A stretch of DNA of 36,678 bases from assembly GCA_011391865.1 (NCBI GenBank), contig JAABPV010000027.1, forward strand, positions 1-36,678. The letters are read 5' to 3'. The notes beneath the pieces were generated by a model. That model made no database searches. It saw only the letters and a list, made by a program, of their open reading frames with translations, and was not told the DNA's origin. The stretch is from Desulfobulbaceae bacterium (lineage in GTDB: Bacteria > Desulfobacterota > Desulfobulbia > Desulfobulbales > Desulfobulbaceae). Below are positions 161-29,315 of the stretch, piece by piece. Position 1 is the first letter of the stretch. Every line of letters begins with the position of its first letter. The position numbers and the translations under genes are program-made.

Positions 161-1348
161 ATGAAAAGAACATCTTTTTCCAATGAATCTGAAAAAAAAG
201 TTGAGATTGAATTTAACGATGAAAGTCTTCCTCTTGATGGTGCTGACGATGCGGAAGGAATGCTTATCGCAGAAGATGTCCTTATGGAACGACCTTTCGA
301 TCCAACTTTTATAAATATTATTCAGAAACAAGATACCTTAAGAAATATTATTGAGCGGTTGAAAAATAATGAGATAGACATGAACACTGATTTCCAGCGG
401 GAAGGAGAACTTTGGGATGCAGGAAAGATGTCCAGACTTATCGAATCAATACTTATCCGCTTCCCTCTGCCTGCATTTTACTTTGATGCCACAAATGATG
501 ACAGCTGGCTTGTGGTTGACGGATTGCAGCGTTTATCTTCGATAAGAAAGTTTGTTATCGAAAAAAATCAGTCGGAGAAACTACGTCTCAGGGGATTAGA
601 ATATTTAGGTGTTCTTACCGGTAAGACGTATGATGATCTTCCTCGACCGCACCAGCGTCGTATTGACGAATGTTCAGTTACTTTGTTTTTAATTCAGCCT
701 GGAACTCCTGACGAAGTCAAATTTTCAATCTTTAGAAGGGTCAACACAGGAGGCTTGACGCTTAATTTCCAAGAAATTCGTAATGCTCTGACATCACAGA
801 TATTGCGCGATTATTTAAGGGAGCTGGCAGGAGATACTTATATGAAGAAAACAATTGGTACAAAAACTAAAAGAATGCAGGATCAAGAGCTGGTTCTCAG
901 GTTTTTGGCTTTTTATACGATGGATTACAGTCAGAGCAAGAAAAACATCACTGTGTTCCTCAATGAAATGATGAAAGTTTTGGAAAAGACGAGTTAGGTG
1001 GAATTGGATAATCTTGCAGAAATATTTCGTATCGCTATCAAGAGAAGCTGGGATGTTTTTGGCGAGACTGCTTTTGAAAAAATAACAGACAATGGGAGTG
1101 GAATCAGGAGAAATTTGAAAAATTCAACGCTATTTGAGGTGTGGACAGTGGCTCTCGCCCGCCTTTCTGAAGAAGAAATGAAGATACTCGAAGCAAAGAA
1201 GAATGTCCTACAAGAAAGGCATATCAAACTGATGTCTGAAGATGAGATGTATTTCCAAAGCATCACATTTTCAACACAGAAAAAAAGCTTCTATCGGATT
1301 CGCTGCGATAGAGTGCAGACATTGATTAACGAGGTACTCCATGCTTGA
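161..1348 (+). pseudogene. DUF262 (GmrSD-like, ParB-fold) protein interrupted by an in-frame TAG
   Basis: The frame opened at 161 runs 278 codons to a TAG at 995-997, then continues in the same frame for another 116 residues to the TGA at 1346-1348. The first part carries DUF262 hallmarks: FQRE near residues 78-81, the DGLQR motif at 120-124 (family form DGQQR) and FRRVNTGG near 200. The second part (ELDNLAEIF, then LFEVWTVALARLSEEE) reads as the normal helical C-terminal half of a DUF262 protein of about 395 residues. It is therefore one gene broken by a single nonsense codon, not two genes; GTG at 998 could in principle restart translation. DUF262 proteins are ParB-fold NTP-dependent enzymes, often found in restriction or defence loci. 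The stretch is AT-rich compared with the DNA after 3445, suggesting transfer. The 3' end overlaps the ATPase gene by 8 bp. A sequencing error or amber readthrough cannot be excluded. Confidence 0.8.
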
Positions 1349-8907: not shown

Positions 8908-9465
8908 ATGCTGACCATAGCCTTCATCCTTGCGGGCCTGCTGCTGGCCGTGGCGCAGACCACCGTCCTCATGCCCGCGCCGGTCTGGATCGCAGCCCCG
9001 GACCTCTATTACGTTCTGGCTGCCTACGCCGCTTATCAGTTCAGCTTCTGCAGGGGCTTTCTCATCATCCTGCCGGTGAGCTGCGTCATGGATGTCTATT
9101 CCGGTGCTGTGGTCGGCATGTATCCGGCCATCTGCGGCTGCGGCTGGCTGCTGCTGAAGTTCATGGCCGTCAAAATGCCGGTGCGCAAATCCTTCTACCA
9201 AATCCCTCTTGCAGGAGCGAGCTATCTTTTTGTCTGCTGGCTGACCGTGTTGCTCCTTGACGCGCTTCACCCTGAGGCGGGCATCAGCTGGTCTTGGCCG
9301 CCGATGCTGTTCCGCGTCGGCCTGCTTTGTCTGGCCGCTGTGCCGCTCTTCCGTTTCTTCCATTTCATTGAGAACCGCCTGCGCGGCAGATTTCTTTTCC
9401 TTCGGGCGAAACAGTCGGTGGCGGACGGCAATCAGTTCCGGCAGGACAGGGGAGGGCTGGAGTGA
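8908..9465 (+). CDS. mreD: Rod shape-determining protein MreD
   Basis: A 185-residue polytopic membrane protein with about five hydrophobic segments, starting MLTIAFILAGLLLAVAQTT. MreD sits in the inner membrane with MreC and PBP2. The primary sequence of this family is poorly conserved; the call rests on size, hydropathy and its place between mreC and mrdA. A shared GTGA couples its stop to the PBP2 start. Confidence 0.88.
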   Translation: MLTIAFILAGLLLAVAQTTVLMPAPVWIAAPDLYYVLAAYAAYQFSFCRGFLIILPVSCVMDVYSGAVVGMYPAICGCGWLLLKFMAVKMPVRKSFYQIPLAGASYLFVCWLTVLLLDALHPEAGISWSWPPMLFRVGLLCLAAVPLFRFFHFIENRLRGRFLFLRAKQSVADGNQFRQDRGGLE

Positions 9466-11426
9466 GGCGGATCAACAAGCGGCGGAGCCGGGCCGCAGAG
9501 GACGCCGAGCTGAAGGATGACGACGGCAAAACAAGAATCAGCCGGGTTAACGAAGGCGAGCTGGACTTCTACCACCGCCGGGCCATGCGCTCATCAGCGG
9601 TGCTGCTCTTCTTTTTCGCCGTCATTGTCGCCCGGCTCTGGCACCTTCAGATTCAGCAGGGCGAGGAGTACGTCAGGCTCGCTCAGAACAATCGGGTGCG
9701 CTCGCTCGACATCGCCGCGCCTAGGGGCAATATTATTGACCGGAAGGGTCGGGAGATCGTCACCAACCGCCCGGCCTTCAACGTGGTCTGGATCCGCGAA
9801 GGCAACCGTATTGACGAGGAGCTGATCAAAAAAGCAGCCGTCATTCTGGAGCTGGACATCACCGAGCTGCTGGGCCGCATCCGCAAGATGGCGGGCACGC
9901 CGGGCCACATCCCTGTCCGGCTGGCGGAGAATCTGACGTGGGACAAGGTCGCCCTGATTGAAAATAACCGCATGGAGCTGCCCGGCATCAAAATTGAGGT
10001 GGTCTCGCAGCGGGTCTATCATTACGGCAACCTAGCTTCCCACATGATTGGATATCTCGGCGAAATCAGCAAGGAGGATCTGAAGGCGGCGGAGCCTGAC
10101 TTCTATCGTCCAAGCGACATGATTGGCAAGATGGGCCTTGAGCGGCTGCGGGAAAGGGATCTGCGCGGCGAGAAGGGACGACAGTACATGGAGGTCAACG
10201 CCCTTGGCTTTGAGCAGCGCAATCTCAAGGGCTTGGAGCCGCTGCCCGGCAACGACCTCCAGCTGACCATCGACGTGGATCTCCAAGAGGTGGCGGAACG
10301 GATGATGATTGAGTCGGGCTACGCCGGAGCGGCGGTGGCGGTGGAGGTCAACACCGGACGGATACTGATGATCGCCAGCGCGCCGGTGCTGGATTTGAGC
10401 AAATTCATCGGCGGCATTTCCACCAAAAACTGGAAGGAGATGCTCGACAATCCCCGGCATCCGCTGATCAACAAAACCGTGCAGGGGCAGTATCCGCCTG
10501 CCTCGACCTACAAGATTGTGACCGCTCTGGCCGCCTTGGCCGAAGGCATCGTCAATCCCGACAGCACGGTCTTCTGCCCCGGCTCCTACCGTTTCGGCAA
10601 CCGGACCTACCGCTGCTGGAAGAAAAACGGCCACGGCACAGTGAATTTAAAAAGTGCATTGGCGGAGTCCTGCGACGTGTATTTTTACCAAGTGGGCCAG
10701 CGGTTAGGCGTGAACCGCATCGCCAGCTACGCCAGCCATCTCGGCTTGGGCATGAAGACCGGGGTTGAGATAGAGCACGAGAAATCGGGATTGATCCCCA
10801 CTTCTGACTGGAAGCTGAAGCGCTACGGCAAGCCTTGGCAGGACGGCGAAACCCTGTCCATCGCCATCGGCCAAGGCTTCAACTTGGTCACGCCGCTACA
10901 GCTGACCATGATGACTGCCGCCGTGGCCAATGGCGGCAAGCTCTACAAGCCCAGCATCATCGAAATGGTGCGCGACTCAGACGGCCATGTCATCGAGCAG
11001 TTTCAAGTCACAGAACGAGATCATTTCACCGGGCAGGAGCGCAATCTGCGGCTGATCAAGGACAGCTTGGTGGAGGTCGTCCATGGCAAACGGGGCACAG
11101 GCCGCAAGGCGCAGGTGCCGGGCTTCACTGTGGCCGGCAAAACCGGCACCGCGCAGGTAGTGCGGCTCAAGCAGTATAAGCATCTGAAGGAAGAAAACAT
11201 TCCTTACAACTACCGTGATCATGCATGGTTCACCGCCTTCGCCCCGGCGGAGAAGCCGGAAATCGCCGTGACTGTGCTGATCGAGCACGGCCTGCACGGC
11301 GGCGGTGCCGCCGCGCCTATCGCTCAGGCGGTGATGCTGAAATATTTCGCCGACCGTCTGCCGAAAACGGACAAAAACGGTGCCGTGCTGCCGATGCCTC
11401 TCTCTGTCCCGGTCATCGGCGACTGA
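9462..11426 (+). CDS. mrdA: Penicillin-binding protein 2 (peptidoglycan transpeptidase)
   Basis: A 654-residue class B PBP that cross-links peptidoglycan during elongation, acting in the periplasm while anchored by one N-terminal helix (SSAVLLFFFAVIVARLW, about 46-62). The dimerisation region begins RSLDIAAPRGNIIDRKG. Catalytic motifs are visible: serine at S348 in STYK (348-351), the SxN-equivalent S403-C-D405, and K560-TGTAQ. The GTG start at 9462 overlaps the mreD stop. Compared with the usual SSD in PBP2, the second motif here reads SCD. Partner of RodA, encoded next. Confidence 0.95.
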   Translation: MRRINKRRSRAAEDAELKDDDGKTRISRVNEGELDFYHRRAMRSSAVLLFFFAVIVARLWHLQIQQGEEYVRLAQNNRVRSLDIAAPRGNIIDRKGREIVTNRPAFNVVWIREGNRIDEELIKKAAVILELDITELLGRIRKMAGTPGHIPVRLAENLTWDKVALIENNRMELPGIKIEVVSQRVYHYGNLASHMIGYLGEISKEDLKAAEPDFYRPSDMIGKMGLERLRERDLRGEKGRQYMEVNALGFEQRNLKGLEPLPGNDLQLTIDVDLQEVAERMMIESGYAGAAVAVEVNTGRILMIASAPVLDLSKFIGGISTKNWKEMLDNPRHPLINKTVQGQYPPASTYKIVTALAALAEGIVNPDSTVFCPGSYRFGNRTYRCWKKNGHGTVNLKSALAESCDVYFYQVGQRLGVNRIASYASHLGLGMKTGVEIEHEKSGLIPTSDWKLKRYGKPWQDGETLSIAIGQGFNLVTPLQLTMMTAAVANGGKLYKPSIIEMVRDSDGHVIEQFQVTERDHFTGQERNLRLIKDSLVEVVHGKRGTGRKAQVPGFTVAGKTGTAQVVRLKQYKHLKEENIPYNYRDHAWFTAFAPAEKPEIAVTVLIEHGLHGGGAAAPIAQAVMLKYFADRLPKTDKNGAVLPMPLSVPVIGD

Positions 11427-11451: not shown

Positions 11452-12564
11452 ATGCTTCGTCTTGACCGCCGTCTCCTGTATAATTTTGACTGGGTGAGCG
11501 TGCTGCTGCTGGCCATGCTTTCCGTGATGTCGCTGGCCAGCCTCTTCAGTGCCACGTGGAACGGCGGTCCGGCACCCTCGCCGCTGTTTTTCAAGCAGCT
11601 GTATTTTTTTCTGTTCGGATACGCCCTGATCCTGATGATCCTCAGTGTTGACTACAACAACTTGAAGCTGCTTGCCTATATCGGCTACGGCGTGGTCTGT
11701 CTGCTGCTGGTCTACACCAAGCTCTTTGTCGAAACTGTGGCCGGCACCCAGCGCTGGATTGACCTCGGCTTTTTCAAGCTCCAGCCCTCTGAGCCGGCCA
11801 AGCTGGTGCTGGTGCTAGTGCTGGCCAGCTGCTACGCCCGAAACGAAACACCGGAGAACGGCTATCAGCTACGCGACCTGCTCCGGCCCGCTGCGCTGAC
11901 CGCCCTTCCTTTCCTGCTGATTGTGATTCAGCCGGATTTGGGCACCGCGCTGATGCTGGCCTTCATTTTCATTTCGATGACTTTGTTCGCCCAGCTACGC
12001 TGGTCAACCTTGGCCACGTTGGGCATCACCGGCCTGATCACAACTGTGCTGGGCTGGAAATACGGCCTCAAACCCTACCAGCGCCGCCGTATTGAGACCT
12101 TTCTCAACCCGGAAGGCGATCCCATGAATCATGGCTACCAGATCAATCAGTCGAAAATCGCCGTGGGCAGCGGCCAGCTTTTCGGCCAAGGCTTCATGGA
12201 AGGCAGCCAAGGCCATCTCAACTTTCTGCCGGAGCGGCACACGGACTTCGCCTTCTCGGTCTGGTGCGAGGAGCTGGGCTTTGTCGGCGCATTTTTTTTC
12301 CTGCTCTGCTTTTTCTGCCTACTGCTCTGGGGTATGAACACCGCCGTGGCCGCCCGCGACAAGTTCGGGGTTTTTCTCGCCTTCGGACTGGTTGTGCTCA
12401 TTTTTTGGCAGGCTGTGATCAACCTCTTCATGATCATGGGCATGCTGCCGGTGGTCGGCATTCCGCTGCCCCTGTTCAGCTATGGCGGCTCCTCGCTGCT
12501 GACCACGCTGACCGCCATCGGCATTTTGATGAACATCCGCATGAGGCGGCATCAGAAACGGTAG
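11452..12564 (+). CDS. rodA: Peptidoglycan glycosyltransferase RodA (SEDS family)
   Basis: A 370-residue polytopic inner-membrane polymerase that extends glycan strands with PBP2. Seen: repeated hydrophobic segments, AGTQRWIDLGFFKLQPSEPAKL in the conserved SEDS loop, the motif LPERHTDFAFSVWCEELG, and the C-terminal PLFSYGGSSLL. An in-frame ATG at 11380 lies inside mrdA; ATG 11452 is chosen because MLRLDRRLLYNFDW is the usual kind of RodA N-terminus. No clear Shine-Dalgarno precedes it, consistent with coupling to mrdA, which ends 25 bp upstream. Confidence 0.94.
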   Translation: MLRLDRRLLYNFDWVSVLLLAMLSVMSLASLFSATWNGGPAPSPLFFKQLYFFLFGYALILMILSVDYNNLKLLAYIGYGVVCLLLVYTKLFVETVAGTQRWIDLGFFKLQPSEPAKLVLVLVLASCYARNETPENGYQLRDLLRPAALTALPFLLIVIQPDLGTALMLAFIFISMTLFAQLRWSTLATLGITGLITTVLGWKYGLKPYQRRRIETFLNPEGDPMNHGYQINQSKIAVGSGQLFGQGFMEGSQGHLNFLPERHTDFAFSVWCEELGFVGAFFFLLCFFCLLLWGMNTAVAARDKFGVFLAFGLVVLIFWQAVINLFMIMGMLPVVGIPLPLFSYGGSSLLTTLTAIGILMNIRMRRHQKR

Positions 12565-12622: not shown

Positions 12623-15103
12623 ATGCTGACTGCCCGACTGTCCAGCCAGTTGCTTCCAGCTCTGGCCGTTCTGCTGCTGCTCGCCGCGAATCCTGCGCCG
12701 TCTCCAGCCCAGCAGTCTGCCTCCGGGCCGCCTGCGGTGTCCAATGACGTGGTGCTGGAAAAAACCGTCGCTCTGTTCTCCCAGCTGCCTGGTCTGACTC
12801 CGCAGGAACTCGAATACGGCAGAAATACGGTCCGCAGTCTGGATTACAATGCCCAGCGGGCGGTGCGGCGGCTCTGCGCTCTGCCCGGAGCCAGCTTCGC
12901 GCAGATCAGGCCGCTGCTGGCGGAAATGACAGAAAACAAGCTATCCTTTGAGCAGCTGCTGGCCTTTGAGGAGTGGGCCAGTCTGCGCGGCGCGTCCATG
13001 TCTCAAGCTGCCGCCGCACTGACCGGTCTGCGCGGCATGAACCGGGAGACCCTCAAAACCTTCCGCACGTTCATCAGGATGGCAGGCGGCATGGACGCAG
13101 GGCTGGCACTACGGTTGCTGCCGCAGCTTAAATCCATGGACGAGACAGTGAACTTCGCCGCGCGGAGTTTGTTCGCCGTCAAAGGCATAGAAGTGCGGCA
13201 GGGGCTGGAGAGCTTGACTGTCCTGCAAAAATTCAGCAAAAAGCAGGCTTGGGCCTACTCTTCCTTTGTCGGAGCGCAGGGTATGACTCCAAACGCGGCT
13301 CTTCAGGCACTGCCGCTCTTCCGGCAGATACAGGACACTGACGCTTGGAATATGCAGTTTTTTTTCAAGCGGACCAAGCCGGACATGAACACAGCTTGGT
13401 CTTGGCTGACCCGCTACTTCACCCAGCCTGTGTCTGAGCAGGAGGCGCAGCATTACAGCATGAGCGCGCAAAACCGCAGTGCCTTGGTCGACGCGCTTTA
13501 CCATGCGGGCGAGGAGGTTGTCTGGCGGATCAACAACCTGCACGCTGTGACCAACGAGTATGGAGCTGAATATTCGCAGGGACAGCTGCAAAGCATGGGC
13601 GCAGGCCAGCTCCAGAGCCTTTTTGACAAGCTCTCTTCGCCCACCAGAGCGCGGTATGGCGGGCAGTTCGCCGCCGCCCGGCAGGCCGGGCAGGGCAAAA
13701 TGATCAGCGTTCTCCGGCAAGCGACCACCGCTGACCGCAGCCAAGTGGCTGAAGATCTGACTTCAGCCAACATCTACGCCCTGCTGGCTCAAGGCAGCGA
13801 GCTGTATGACTCCTCGTTCCGGGACATTCTGGTGCCAATCCTGAAGAAGCGGGTCGCGGCGGCGCATCGGGACAATCTTTTGGTCTTTCTTCAGGCCACT
13901 GATCCCAGCAACCTGCTGGTCTCAAACTTCATCGTCAGTCTCGCCCAGAAAGGCAAACTGACCACTTTTTTCCCCACTGACGCAGGCGAGCAGCAGCGCA
14001 TTCTGGAGCTGGTGGCCTCATCGGCCTTCAAGGACGAAGACTCCGTCCTGCTTTTCTCAGCCACGTTCCGCTACCTGCTCACTGTGCTGGAGCCGTCGGC
14101 CCGGCATTTTCTCATTCAAAAAATGGTGGCGGCAGACAGCGGGCAGGGCAGCTTCAGCAAGCTGATCACCGTTATTCTTCAATATTATATTCAAGAATAT
14201 CAGGAACTGCTCAGTCCTGAATCAACAGTGCTGATTCAGCAGACCATCGCCCGCAACGGGGCTGTTGACCTGCGCCGCTATTTAGTCACGCCCTTTACGC
14301 AGTGGAAGGCGGACAACCAGCTTGGCTCACTTTCCATTTTCCATCCTGATGACGACGGGCGCAGTTCCTTTGTCTCCAACGCCCAGACACTGAGCCGCAA
14401 CGGCTACCGGCTGGCGTTGTCCGAGCAGTACACCTTCGCTTCCAACGCAGCAGAGCGGCAGCGGTTTGAAGCCTTGATCGCACGGGCTGGCAACGGCGGC
14501 TTCGCTGCCCTTTTTGAGGCCATGCTCAGAGAGCCGTTTACTGCCGCTTTTGTAAAAAATATCAACGGGATCACCATTCGGCATTCTGTTCATGTCTACG
14601 GTGGCAAGGAGCGGCAGGAGCGGGTCATGCTGCGTTTTCTGCAGGGCGGTGACGAGATGCTCGCCCAGCGCGGCCACTCCTACTGGCGTTCCGAGCAGAT
14701 CGTTGATCCCGTCAAGCAGCTGCTGGAGAGCCAGCAGATTTCGGAACGGGACATGGCCGCCCGGCAGCGTTTTCTTAGCCTCGGTTCCTGCGGCGGGGTA
14801 AAGGTCTACACCAAGCTGACCCGGCTGTTTGACAGCCATGTGGACATCCTTGCCACCATCGGCACAGGCATGGCAATGATCAATGACCCCTACAACTTGC
14901 ATTTTTTTGAAATCATCGCCAAAAATCCATCTGGCATGAGCTGGGAGGAGCTCGCCCGCAAAACCGCCTTCATTTTCTCTGCCGGTCGGGGCCAAGATTA
15001 CCTCCAGCCCGGTTGTCTGACTGCCATCTTGCATAAGATTTTGGATGAAGACATGAAGCGGCATGGGATCAAGCCCAAGCAAGATGCCGATGATTTGTGG
15101 TGA
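12623..15103 (+). CDS. Large secreted protein, helical repeats plus possible caspase-like C-terminal domain
   Basis: I do not recognise this 826-residue protein as a named family. The N-terminus is a plausible Sec signal (hydrophobic run LPALAVLLLLAA, cleavage possible after A29 in PSPA-QQ). Residues about 45-260 are helical and show degenerate repeats of roughly 35 residues with a recurring pattern such as LPGAS..QIRPLLAEM, LRGAS..QAAAALTGL and VGAQGMTPNAALQALP. The middle is alpha-rich. Near the C-terminus RGHSY (H685) is followed 38 residues later by LGSCGG (C723), after a hydrophobic strand-like segment each time. This is the order and spacing of the His/Cys pair of caspase-fold peptidases. 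A second conserved-looking part follows (ATIGTGMAMINDP). It sits 58 bp after rodA and 12 bp before ispE, so it may be transcribed with either. Peptidase function is inference only. Confidence 0.75.
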   Translation: MLTARLSSQLLPALAVLLLLAANPAPSPAQQSASGPPAVSNDVVLEKTVALFSQLPGLTPQELEYGRNTVRSLDYNAQRAVRRLCALPGASFAQIRPLLAEMTENKLSFEQLLAFEEWASLRGASMSQAAAALTGLRGMNRETLKTFRTFIRMAGGMDAGLALRLLPQLKSMDETVNFAARSLFAVKGIEVRQGLESLTVLQKFSKKQAWAYSSFVGAQGMTPNAALQALPLFRQIQDTDAWNMQFFFKRTKPDMNTAWSWLTRYFTQPVSEQEAQHYSMSAQNRSALVDALYHAGEEVVWRINNLHAVTNEYGAEYSQGQLQSMGAGQLQSLFDKLSSPTRARYGGQFAAARQAGQGKMISVLRQATTADRSQVAEDLTSANIYALLAQGSELYDSSFRDILVPILKKRVAAAHRDNLLVFLQATDPSNLLVSNFIVSLAQKGKLTTFFPTDAGEQQRILELVASSAFKDEDSVLLFSATFRYLLTVLEPSARHFLIQKMVAADSGQGSFSKLITVILQYYIQEYQELLSPESTVLIQQTIARNGAVDLRRYLVTPFTQWKADNQLGSLSIFHPDDDGRSSFVSNAQTLSRNGYRLALSEQYTFASNAAERQRFEALIARAGNGGFAALFEAMLREPFTAAFVKNINGITIRHSVHVYGGKERQERVMLRFLQGGDEMLAQRGHSYWRSEQIVDPVKQLLESQQISERDMAARQRFLSLGSCGGVKVYTKLTRLFDSHVDILATIGTGMAMINDPYNLHFFEIIAKNPSGMSWEELARKTAFIFSAGRGQDYLQPGCLTAILHKILDEDMKRHGIKPKQDADDLW

Positions 15104-24416: not shown

Positions 24417-25397
24417 ATGGTCTTTCCCGAATACCGTCCCCGCCGGATGCGGCGGAATGAGAACTTCCGCGCCATGATCCGTGAAACCCGCTTGGCTGCG
24501 GAGCAGCTTGTTTATCCGCTCTTTGTTATGCCGGGTAAGGGCAAAAAGGAGGAGGTGCCGTCGATGCCGGGCGTGTTCCGCCTGTCCGTGGATCAGCTCA
24601 AGCAGGAGGCCAAAGACTGCCTTGAAGTCGGTGTCCGCTCAGTGATTCTCTTCGGCCTGCCGGAGAAGAAGGACGCGGTCGGCTCCGGTGCTCATGCCAA
24701 GAACGGCATAGTCCAGCAGGCAATCAAGGAGCTGAAGAACACTGCGCCGGATCTCACCGTCATCACCGATGTTTGTCTCTGCGAATACACCGATCACGGG
24801 CACTGCGGCTGCCTTGCGGGCAAAGAGGTGGACAACGACGCGACGCTGGAGCTGCTGGCCAAAACCGCGCTCTCGCACGCTCAGGCCGGGGCGGACATGG
24901 TCGCGCCGTCAGACATGATGGATGGCCGGGTGAGTGAAATCCGCAGCACGCTGGACGAGAACGATTTTCACAATGTGCCGATCATGTCGTATGCGGTCAA
25001 ATACGCCTCGGCCTTCTACGGCCCCTTCCGCGATGCTGCTGATTGTGCGCCGCAGTTTGGCGACCGCCGCAGCTATCAGATGGATCCGGCCAACAGCCGC
25101 GAGGCTCTGCGCGAGGCCACTTTGGATGTGGACGAGGGCGCGGACATCCTGATGGTCAAACCGGCGGTCGCGTATTTGGACATCATCAGCCGCCTGCGCG
25201 ATGAGTTCGACCTGCCCATCGCCGCCTATCACGTCAGTGGGGAATACGCGATGATCAAGGCCGCAGCGGCCAAAGGCTGGATTGACGAACAGCGGGTGAT
25301 GGCCGAGACGCTGCTTTCGATCAGAAGGGCAGGCGCGGACATCATCCTCACCTATTTTGCCAAAGACATGGCAAGACTGCTGCGGGGACAGTCATGA
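24417..25397 (+). CDS. hemB: Delta-aminolevulinic acid dehydratase (porphobilinogen synthase)
   Basis: A 326-residue cytosolic enzyme that condenses two 5-aminolevulinates to porphobilinogen for heme and siroheme. Seen: the cysteine metal-site motif [15 protein letters not shown], the lysine regions [18 protein letters not shown] and DILMVKPA (Schiff-base lysine), and [17 protein letters not shown] 24417 has AGGAGA 8 nt upstream; the longer frame from 24210 runs through repeat copy C and is not coding. The last codons read LLRGQS and the stop overlaps the following ATPase start in ATGA. A decayed second 3' end of hemB lies 4 kb downstream, ending LLRG-stop. Confidence 0.96.
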
Positions 25398-26572
25398 TCC
25401 GCTCGCTGCATTTTGACGGCTTCCGCAGTTTTCCCAGCCGCCGCCAATATGCCCGCAGCCAGAGCCAGCCTTTTCAAGTGCTGGAGCTTGCTCCGCTGAC
25501 TCTGCTGGTCGGGCGGAACAACTCCGGCAAAACCAGCGTCGCTGAATTGCTGTATCGGGTGCTGGCCGGGCTGGCGGGAGCAGGCAAGGAAGCGTTGCCG
25601 CTAAGTGTGAGCGGCCTGCCAGCTGCGGCCAGCTTTCAGGATTTGCTTCCTGCACGGGATGCCAACGCATTTCTTGAGCTGAATATTAAATTTCAGGTAA
25701 AAGACTGTCAGCATCGGCTGGAAGAAATTCTTTACCTGCCGAGCCTGATGCAGGACGATCTCAGGCCGTGGGCCAGAAGCATTCAATGGGATGGTCAAGA
25801 CAGCCTTGTTCCTGAAGGGCCGCTTGAACAAGGTCTTCTGCCGCCTGAAATTCCAGATAGAGCGGCGGTTCAGGAGGCATTCTCCAAGCTGCTCCGCTCC
25901 AGCGTCTGGCTGGGGCCGCTGCGGGAGCCTGTCCCAGAAATCCCGCAACGCAAGGCGCGGCAGCAAAATCAGATTGGCCCGGCAGGACAAAATGCGATTG
26001 AACTGCTGTCTGAAGATGACGAACTGTTTAAGACGGTATCCGATTGGCTGCGTGAACATGCCGGGTTTTCATTGCGCTGGGAGAAAAATTTGGATTTATG
26101 GCGGATGAACACCGTCCGAGGCACAGCGCGAAATATTTCCATCACGCAGGCCGGAGCGGGAATTCATCAGCTTCTCCCAATATTGACCTTGGCGAAATGG
26201 CGGCAGCTTCGCTGCGGTGATGTTCAATTCATTGATGTTGTGCAGCAGCCGGAACTGCATCTGCATGATGCCCTTCAGTCTGCGCTCGGCGATATGTTTA
26301 TTGATGCAGCTCTTGCCGCCGGGCAAGGCGTGACGGTCGTTGAGACGCACGCTGAGGGCTTGCTGCTGCGGGTGCGCAGGCGCATTGCGGAAGGGAAGAT
26401 CAAACCGGGGCAGGTCGGCCTTTACTATGTGGACGACAACCATTCCGGCAGCAGCCTCCGGCGCATTGATCTACGGGAAGACGGTGAAGTTGACTGGTGG
26501 CCTGAAGGAGTTTTTCTCGAATCATTTGAGGAGGTCAAAGCATTGCGCCAAGCGCAGAGGCGGCGGAGCTGA
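25394..26572 (+). CDS. AAA (OLD/AAA_15-like) ATPase, DUF3696 type
   Basis: A 392-residue ATPase. It begins [13 protein letters not shown], and the Walker [10 protein letters not shown] lies near residues 40-48. The C-terminal ATPase half has [12 protein letters not shown] (signature-like), [17 protein letters not shown] (Walker B region) and [17 protein letters not shown], then a DUF3696-like tail with VDWWPEGVF. It is coupled to hemB by an ATGA overlap and precedes the TOPRIM-like gene by 1 nt. Base composition is visibly less GC-rich than hemB. By family it is probably the sensor/motor of a defence module; this is inference. Confidence 0.87.
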
Positions 26573-27545: not shown

Positions 27546-29315
27546 ATGAATACACAGCAAAAAGAAGACGGACCGGAAATCAGCCCCAGCGTCGTGTTTC
27601 TCTACGACCTCCTGAAATGGGTGCGGCAGGGGCGCATCCGGGTGCCCGCTTTTCAACGCTCTTTTGTCTGGACCAGACAGAACATGCTTGATTTGTTTGA
27701 TTCAGTGCGCTGGAGCTATCCCATAGGAACGCTGCTCTTCTGGCGATCGTCGGTGGCGACTGCCAGTCCCCATGTCCATTTCGGCCCTTTTGACCTGTCT
27801 CAGATCAAGTCAAATGACACATTGCTGCTCTTGGACGGCCAGCAGCGACTCACCACGCTCGCCGGTGTGCTGCTGCAAAAGTCTTCCGATATGACTTTTT
27901 CTGACCATGACGAAGACCCTGGGCGCTGGAACATCTATTTTGATGCCAGCACGGATAAGGGTGGTAGCTTCATGCACATGCCAAATGGAGAGCAGCCGAA
28001 GGTCTGGCAAGTTCCTTTGTATCAATTAAGAGACACCGGAAGTCTCTTTCAAGCAGTTGGAAATATATTCTCAGTCGATGAAAAGAAGTTTGAAGAAGCT
28101 GGGCGTACTAAAGAATTTGTAGCTGAACAACTTCAATCAATTGCGCGGGCTTTGCAATCCTACAAAATTCCAATCGTAGAATTTGTTACCGATGATCTGA
28201 ATTTAGCGGTGGAAAGCTTCACCCGGTTAAACCGGAAAGGAGTGTCCATTGGTGCGGATGAGATGTTTTCAGCCCTCACGTATCAAGCTGGAAACGCGGG
28301 CAAGCGGTTTCATATTGCACGGGAAATTGACCGGACATTAAAAGAAATCAAAGAGATCGGCTTTGGCGAAGTGGAGCGGGTTCTGGTACTGCGGGCTTTT
28401 TTGGTTGCAGTCGGGCTTCATCCATATCGAGCTGACTGGCCGAAGCTCAGTGAAACCGCACAAACGGATGTCGCCAATCAACTCCCGGAAGCGATGGAGC
28501 GGGCGCGGTCAGGACTGATCCGGGCAATAGAATTTCTGCGGGAGGAAAGCGTTTATAACGCCAGAATGCTACCCTACGGCCTGCACCTTGTGGGCTTGAG
28601 CGCATGGCTGGGTGAGGATGAAAAACCATCCTCAGAAGCAAAACGTCTTCTCCGCCGTTGGTTTTGGCTGACCGGCTTTGCAAGCTGGTTCGGACAGGGA
28701 AATCCAGCTAGATATGCCGCCGGGCTGGCGGAGCTGCGTGACACGGCCCGAAAAGTATGCAAAGAAGGGATGCCGGTGCCTGATGAGCTGGAACATCTTC
28801 CTTGGACAACTCCGACAGCACCTTTTCCTGAACGTTATGATTTGCGAAGTGCTCGTGTGCGTACCTTGCTCTGTCTTTTGGCCAAGGACGGCGTGAGCAA
28901 TCTCGACGATTCTCATAAAAATGCGCAGGAGATCGCAGAAGATTTTGTCCGCAACGGGCCGGAAGCAATGCGTATTATCTGGAGCGTGACAAAGGCCGTT
29001 GCGCCGCTTTCCTCCAGCCCTGCCAACCGCATGTTCGATGTGTTCGGGGAGGAACGCGGGCAAGCCCGCAGTTTATTGAGAAATCATAATGTCAGCAGCG
29101 GTTTTCTTGAGTCGCATTTGTTGCCATCACCCATCAATGACGCTCTTCAGGAAAAAGAGTCCATGCAGAAAGCCCTTAAAGATCGTCTTGATCAAATGAT
29201 TGAACGGGAACTGTCATTTATGAATGAACTTAAACTTACGCCCCCTTCAGCTCGGACTGGTTCAATAACGATTGATCAGGAAGATGATGCTCCGCTTCCT
29301 GATGAGGAGGATTGA
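27546..29315 (+). CDS. DUF262 (GmrSD-like) protein, 589 residues
   Basis: The N-terminal DUF262 domain is clear: [22 protein letters not shown] (FQR at 36-38), YPIGTLLFW, and [13 protein letters not shown] with D97-GQQR. The motif [22 protein letters not shown] follows near residue 225-245. The rest is a long helical region ending in an acidic tail (DEED). I do not see a clear HNH/DUF1524 nuclease motif of the GmrD type, so a complete GmrSD enzyme is not supported. It begins 6 nt after the TOPRIM-like gene stop, making the three genes one operon. DUF262 proteins use NTPs and appear in restriction of modified phage DNA (GmrSD) and other defence loci. Confidence 0.85.

Follow-up and report, generated by a model that had tools for sequence, protein, structure and literature searches.

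A lineage-restricted, exported protein of the Desulfobulbales with a candidate clan CD-like cysteine hydrolase domain

Known clan CD proteins and the layout of the 826-residue protein

Separase and TPR-CHAT proteins share an architecture in which a clan CD domain sits at the C-terminus, behind helical repeats. For PmC11, the sheet is described as having the strand order 4-3-2-1-5-6-7-8-9, with the His and Cys at the C-termini of β5 and β6 (PMC4850288). A Gly adjacent to the catalytic His is given as conserved in clan CD, and gingipain R is described as binding the P1 Arg through an Asp of its first helix (both PMC4357240). We compared these systems with an 826-amino-acid protein of a Desulfobulbaceae bacterium (GenBank assembly GCA_011391865.1, contig JAABPV010000027.1, positions 1 to 36,678). 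This whole stretch of 36,678 nucleotides is called the window below, and the gene and all its features lie on the forward strand. The open reading frame, at 12623..15103, is a real gene with the boundaries assigned to it by a first-pass annotation made from the DNA letters, as judged from its translation, a search for relatives, and an AlphaFold2 model. The product is most likely a lineage-restricted, exported, candidate clan CD-like cysteine hydrolase, with an alpha-solenoid preceding an alpha/beta C-terminal domain.

We found an export-type hydrophobic segment at the N-terminus, with a peak of 2.88 over the 12 residues from residue 10 in a crude hydrophobicity test that 69 of 73 homologues also pass at their N-termini. 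This agrees with the signal peptide proposed in the first-pass annotation, which is predicted at about residues 1 to 30 (12623..12712); the model has a helix at residues 10 to 21 and low pLDDT at 26 to 39. On our reading of the sequence, residues 10 to 21 would form the h-region and cleavage would fall between SPA and QQ. The crude test flagged a 19-residue stretch after residue 70 as well, in 27 of the 73 homologues, and a lipobox-like pattern appeared in 4 of the 73 by a crude test.

When a profile of the family was compared with itself, a repeat period of 32 to 33 residues was detected over about residues 56 to 265 (12788..13417). The best window score was 42.8, against a maximum of 16 among 20 column shuffles, and the degenerate helical repeats that had been proposed are thus present. 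The model places helices here, and the N-terminal part of the protein is predicted to be almost wholly helical. A helical middle domain at about residues 281 to 555 (13463..14287) was delimited from the profile alignment and the model, with the conserved segments SELYDSSFRD and AQKGKL. The protein would leave the cytoplasm by Sec, and its helical solenoid (about residues 40 to 555) may hold a partner or substrate. Helical repeats before a C-terminal domain, here a candidate clan CD domain, are also the layout of separase (C50), TPR-CHAT, and SAVED-CHAT proteins. Those proteins are cytoplasmic, whereas ours is exported, and its sequence does not resemble CHAT; for separase, the comparison covered the fold.

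Invariant residues and predicted strands of the C-terminal domain

The candidate catalytic domain is the C-terminal alpha/beta domain, residues 556 to 826 (14288..15100). AlphaFold2 modeled the whole protein with a pLDDT of 90.7 and a pTM of 0.84, and residues 556 to 826 with a pLDDT of 91.6 and a pTM of 0.90. In the first half of the domain, the model has a strand at 566-573, a helix, a strand at 596-599, two helices, and a hairpin at 641-647/650-658; in the second half, it has a helix, a strand at 679-682 leading to H685, helices, a strand at 716-720 leading to C723, a helix, and a strand at 740-745. The order along the chain, β1, β2, the β3-β4 hairpin, β5-His, β6-Cys, and β7, is the same in both models and agrees with that of PmC11. 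The first-pass annotation had pointed to the motifs RGHSY and LGSCGG, 38 residues apart and each behind a strand-like segment, as a possible His-then-Cys pair of the caspase fold (clan CD). We found H685 in RGHSYW and C723 in LGSCGG at that distance, and in each of the two models H685 comes after strand 5 and C723 after strand 6, so that the two motifs sit after successive predicted strands in the order seen in clan CD.

Both residues proved to be conserved. All fetched loci of the family gave 133 distinct C-terminal sequences, of which 131 cover both sites and 2 are truncated. H685 and C723 are invariant in 131/131, with a constant spacing of 38 residues in 131/131. Each of the six residues of RGHSYW (residues 683-688, 14669..14686), where H685 is the candidate catalytic base, is kept in 131/131. 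In GSCGG (residues 721-725, 14783..14797), where C723 is the candidate nucleophile, the same holds for G721, C723, and G724, while S722 is kept in 121/131 and G725 in 129/131. Strand 7 is followed by a conserved loop, GTGMAMINDPYN (residues 747-758, 14861..14896), with G747 in 131/131 and G749 and N754 in 132/132 each. A further conserved motif, DDDG, comes after strand 1 (14348..14359; D576, 125/125; D577, 124/125; D578, 125/125; G579, 125/126) and is a candidate acidic specificity or metal site. The set of 73 full-length homologues has 39 invariant residues, including RGHSYW 683-688, G721, C723, G724, G747, G749, and N754. The protein holds 13 His and 3 Cys, among which only H307, H685, and C723 are invariant in this set. 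Since C723 is the sole invariant Cys of the three, it is not half of a conserved disulfide.

The near-invariant residues are also clustered in the model. Of the 34 C-terminal positions with a conservation of 98.5% or more, 18 lie within 10 residues after the five strands that we took as parallel, windows that make up 50 of 266 positions. The hypergeometric P value is 1.2e-6 (9e-6 and 3e-5 with window widths of 8 and 12), which is optimistic because neighboring sites are not independent. We read this arrangement in the predicted structure as the pattern expected of an active-site rim.

We put at roughly even chances the reading that this protein is a Sec-exported solenoid joined to a clan CD-like cysteine hydrolase and most probably a peptidase, in which C723 would act as the nucleophile and H685 as the base. 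The two residues would be in contact in the C-terminal domain, and the invariant DDDG behind strand 1 may shape a pocket that receives a basic residue on the N-terminal side of the scissile bond. C723 is a single residue that offers a clean test.

Alternatively, the domain could be a nonpeptidase alpha/beta enzyme of a different type, a hydrolase or transferase that depends on a cysteine or a metal. DDDG, H685, C723, and N754 would then line one site, whose substrate might be, for example, a sugar or an acyl group of the envelope. The invariant acidic triplet of DDDG resembles the metal sites of PIG-L (HPDDE) and SurE (NDDG), and GSCGG suits the small-x-nucleophile-x-small turn. However, profile comparison with sets from related genomes gave a probability of 0.3% for PIG-L and 1.7% for SurE. 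The equivalent of the PIG-L zinc His, H574, is kept in only 91/125 sequences and is Gln in 30, and the succession seen here, His behind one strand and Cys behind the next, is that of clan CD. We regard this alternative as rather unlikely.

Fold and sequence comparisons with described families

We found no match in the PDB at an E value of ≤1e-3 with Foldseek, for either the whole model or the domain model. The best rows for the domain model were P-loop GTPases (FeoB, E value of 1.6e-3, prob 1.00), and no clan CD chain was among the best 50 rows, nor among the rows listed for the whole model. As a second look, we ran VIA-align over Foldseek's own top chains; here rows within a Z score of 1 count as tied, and a Z below 8 can reflect a common arrangement. 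For the whole model, the first rank went to the SAVED-CHAT chain 8tl0_I (Z of 8.7, 164 residues aligned, 3.8 Å), and separase 5fc2_B reached a Z of 7.7 over 173 residues. For the domain model, Gtr1 was top at a Z of 8.6, and the C11 protease 6n9j_A (Z of 7.5) had the longest alignment of the 50 rows, 181 residues. Among the other rows, at Z scores of about 7 to 8, small GTPases predominated, and some were N-terminal domains of glutamate receptors. Thus, clan CD chains (Z of 8.7, 7.7, and 7.5) and GTPases are tied. Caspases proper (C14A), legumain, and C80 domains were not among the fold rows shown, which excludes nothing. A viral fold library returned mostly GTPases with low scores, none at an E value of ≤1e-3. 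The proposal of a caspase fold is partly supported, by the invariance of the two residues and by the His-Cys strand order, but the fold search does not separate clan CD from GTPases. All the tests that we ran are compatible with the caspase-like idea, but none proves it.

The GTPases that top the Foldseek list, fill most VIA-align rows, and recur in the viral library would fit a noncatalytic, GTPase-like alpha/beta scaffold that ends the solenoid, its conserved loops serving as a protein-binding surface. The β hairpin before the helix at 662-674 would suit a Ras-like order too. However, the P-loop pattern [AG]xxxxGK[ST] has no match in the protein, and DDDG occupies the place of the P-loop, which makes a GTPase function unlikely. 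An exported protein would meet no GTP, and a lone invariant Cys and an invariant His at strand ends exceed what a scaffold needs. We therefore consider such a scaffold quite improbable, and a clan CD-like hydrolase remains our preferred reading.

The first-pass annotation had recognized no family, and neither Pfam, NCBIfam, PADLOC, nor PDB sequences assign one. The Pfam families C11 (PF03415), C14 (PF00656), C25 (PF01364), and CHAT (PF12770) match neither the protein itself nor any of 46 homologues scanned at an E value of ≤0.1, and nothing of note came from NCBIfam, PADLOC, or a search of PDB sequences that used one sequence and two profiles as queries. A Pfam match to Baculo_LEF5_C (E value of 7e-4, below the cutoff; 26 residues; 2 of the 46 homologues at an E value of ≤0.1) was put down to chance. 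Profile comparison of the domain with C11, C14, C25, and CHAT sets gave probabilities of 0.2 to 0.5%. The same procedure did find CHAT-C14 (93.7%), CHAT-C25 (95.3%), and C14-C25 (71.7%) as controls, but it misses C11 against the other clan CD sets (0.8 to 3.8%), so the negative result is weak evidence.

We then set the domain beside individual clan CD families. The spacing between His and Cys in families of related genomes is 31 to 36 residues in C25, 46 to 58 in C11, 48 to 62 in C14, and 45 to 72 in CHAT. His is always followed by Gly in C11 (18/18), C14 (29/29), and CHAT (23/23), whereas here it is followed by Ser; the usual HG is absent, and an invariant Gly, G684 (131/131), stands beside H685 on its N-terminal side. 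The resemblance to C11 (clostripain, PmC11) lies in the model, where two additional strands precede the one that leads to the His, and His and Cys come after strands 5 and 6, respectively; C11 enzymes are secreted as well, and 6n9j_A gave the longest VIA-align alignment. Our protein differs from C11 in lacking a Pfam match, in its profile probability of 0.2%, in having HS in place of HG, and in its solenoid N-terminus; an Asp stands two residues before the Cys in the C11 rows shown (DAC/DMC), where our protein has G721. C25 (gingipain-like) domains of related genomes (loci L213-L232) have Ser after the catalytic His in 9/20, which share the GHS form of our protein, and Gly before it in 19/20, and the short C25 spacing is close to the 38 residues found here. 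However, the profile probability for C25 is 0.2%, and no Pfam C25 match was found. The genome that encodes our protein also holds four Peptidase_C14 and two Peptidase_C25 matches (loci L170 and L224), so recognized clan CD enzymes coexist with the 826-residue protein.

Distribution and genomic neighborhood

A search with the single protein found the gene in 60 of 96 related genomes. It matched 53 of 59 genomes of family f1, and the six without a match are 68 to 90% complete. A profile built from 46 homologues found the gene in 136 of the 257 genomes of the class, which all belong to the families labeled f1, f3, and f12, and in 12 of 395 genomes drawn from across the phylum, each of them from the same order. 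A profile of the C-terminal domain matched 14 of these 395 at an E value of ≤0.1; 12 are the full relatives in the same order, and two weak fragments (E values of 0.04 and 0.09) were taken as chance. The profile searches stayed within the phylum, and the scan of genome contigs beyond the relatives used a single sequence query, which reaches close relatives only. That scan gave a 73% match to a record of the cable bacterium "Candidatus Electronema aureum," which belongs to the genus of our genome and which the NCBI taxonomy places in the Desulfobulbaceae, Desulfobulbales. Viral contigs yielded no relative of the protein. Because the gene is present mostly in one copy, or as two contig fragments, and the f1 genomes without it are incomplete, it looks like a core gene of f1, f3, and f12 rather than a mobile one.

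We tentatively propose a broader view, somewhat short of probable, in which the protein represents a new clan CD peptidase family that leaves the cytoplasm and carries its own alpha-solenoid, much like separase or TPR-CHAT but in the periplasm. It would be a single-copy core gene of three Desulfobulbales families, including cable bacteria, and its product would process some protein of the envelope or surface. If so, the Desulfobulbales, the group that includes cable bacteria, would have a core exported protease that has so far gone unnamed, and an extracytoplasmic solenoid in a caspase-like layout would widen the range of clan CD. The envelope biology of cable bacteria is under active study. 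A literature search on caspase-like or clan CD proteins and peptidases in cable bacteria, Desulfobulb- taxa, and Electronema found no paper on the family.

In the window, rodA lies upstream (PF01098, E value of 7e-99; FTSW_RODA_SPOVE match at 11494-12549) and ends at 12564, with the open reading frame starting 58 bases after its end, and an ispE-like GHMP kinase gene lies downstream. An envelope role had been suggested from the position after rodA. We found rodA upstream in only 3 of 132 mapped genomes, all from the genus of our genome, and thus the envelope argument from rodA fails. Export by itself still suggests a location in the envelope or outside. Of the 126 genomes whose downstream flank extends for 900 bases or more, 103 carry a holA-like gene (match to the DNA polymerase III delta C-terminal domain) immediately after it (f1, 51/62; f3, 0/12; f12, 52/52); the 11 f1 genomes that lack this neighbor are the 3 from the genus of our genome and 8 of g14. 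Where flank sufficed, ClpS was within 2.6 kb in 80/95 genomes and ClpA within 4.5 kb in 71/83; the Pfam names of these downstream genes were taken from one example. We see no functional reading of the holA-clpS-clpA order for an exported protein.

The holA-like gene is divergent (9319-10674 of locus L035; also L038 and L044), with clpS-clpA after it, and in L038 it overlaps the homologue gene. In "Candidatus Electronema aureum" (L031:10543-12585), the next gene downstream encodes a Trypsin_2 protein, versus ispE in the window. The search for FTSW_RODA_SPOVE gave one match per genome in 19 genomes, ours and 18 others, although both FtsW and RodA are expected, and may miss one. Two copies of a GmrSD_N (DUF262) and AAA_15/DUF3696 pair flank the housekeeping block of the window (161-997, 1341-2447, 25394-26572, and 27546-29315) and look like a repeated defense-type pair.
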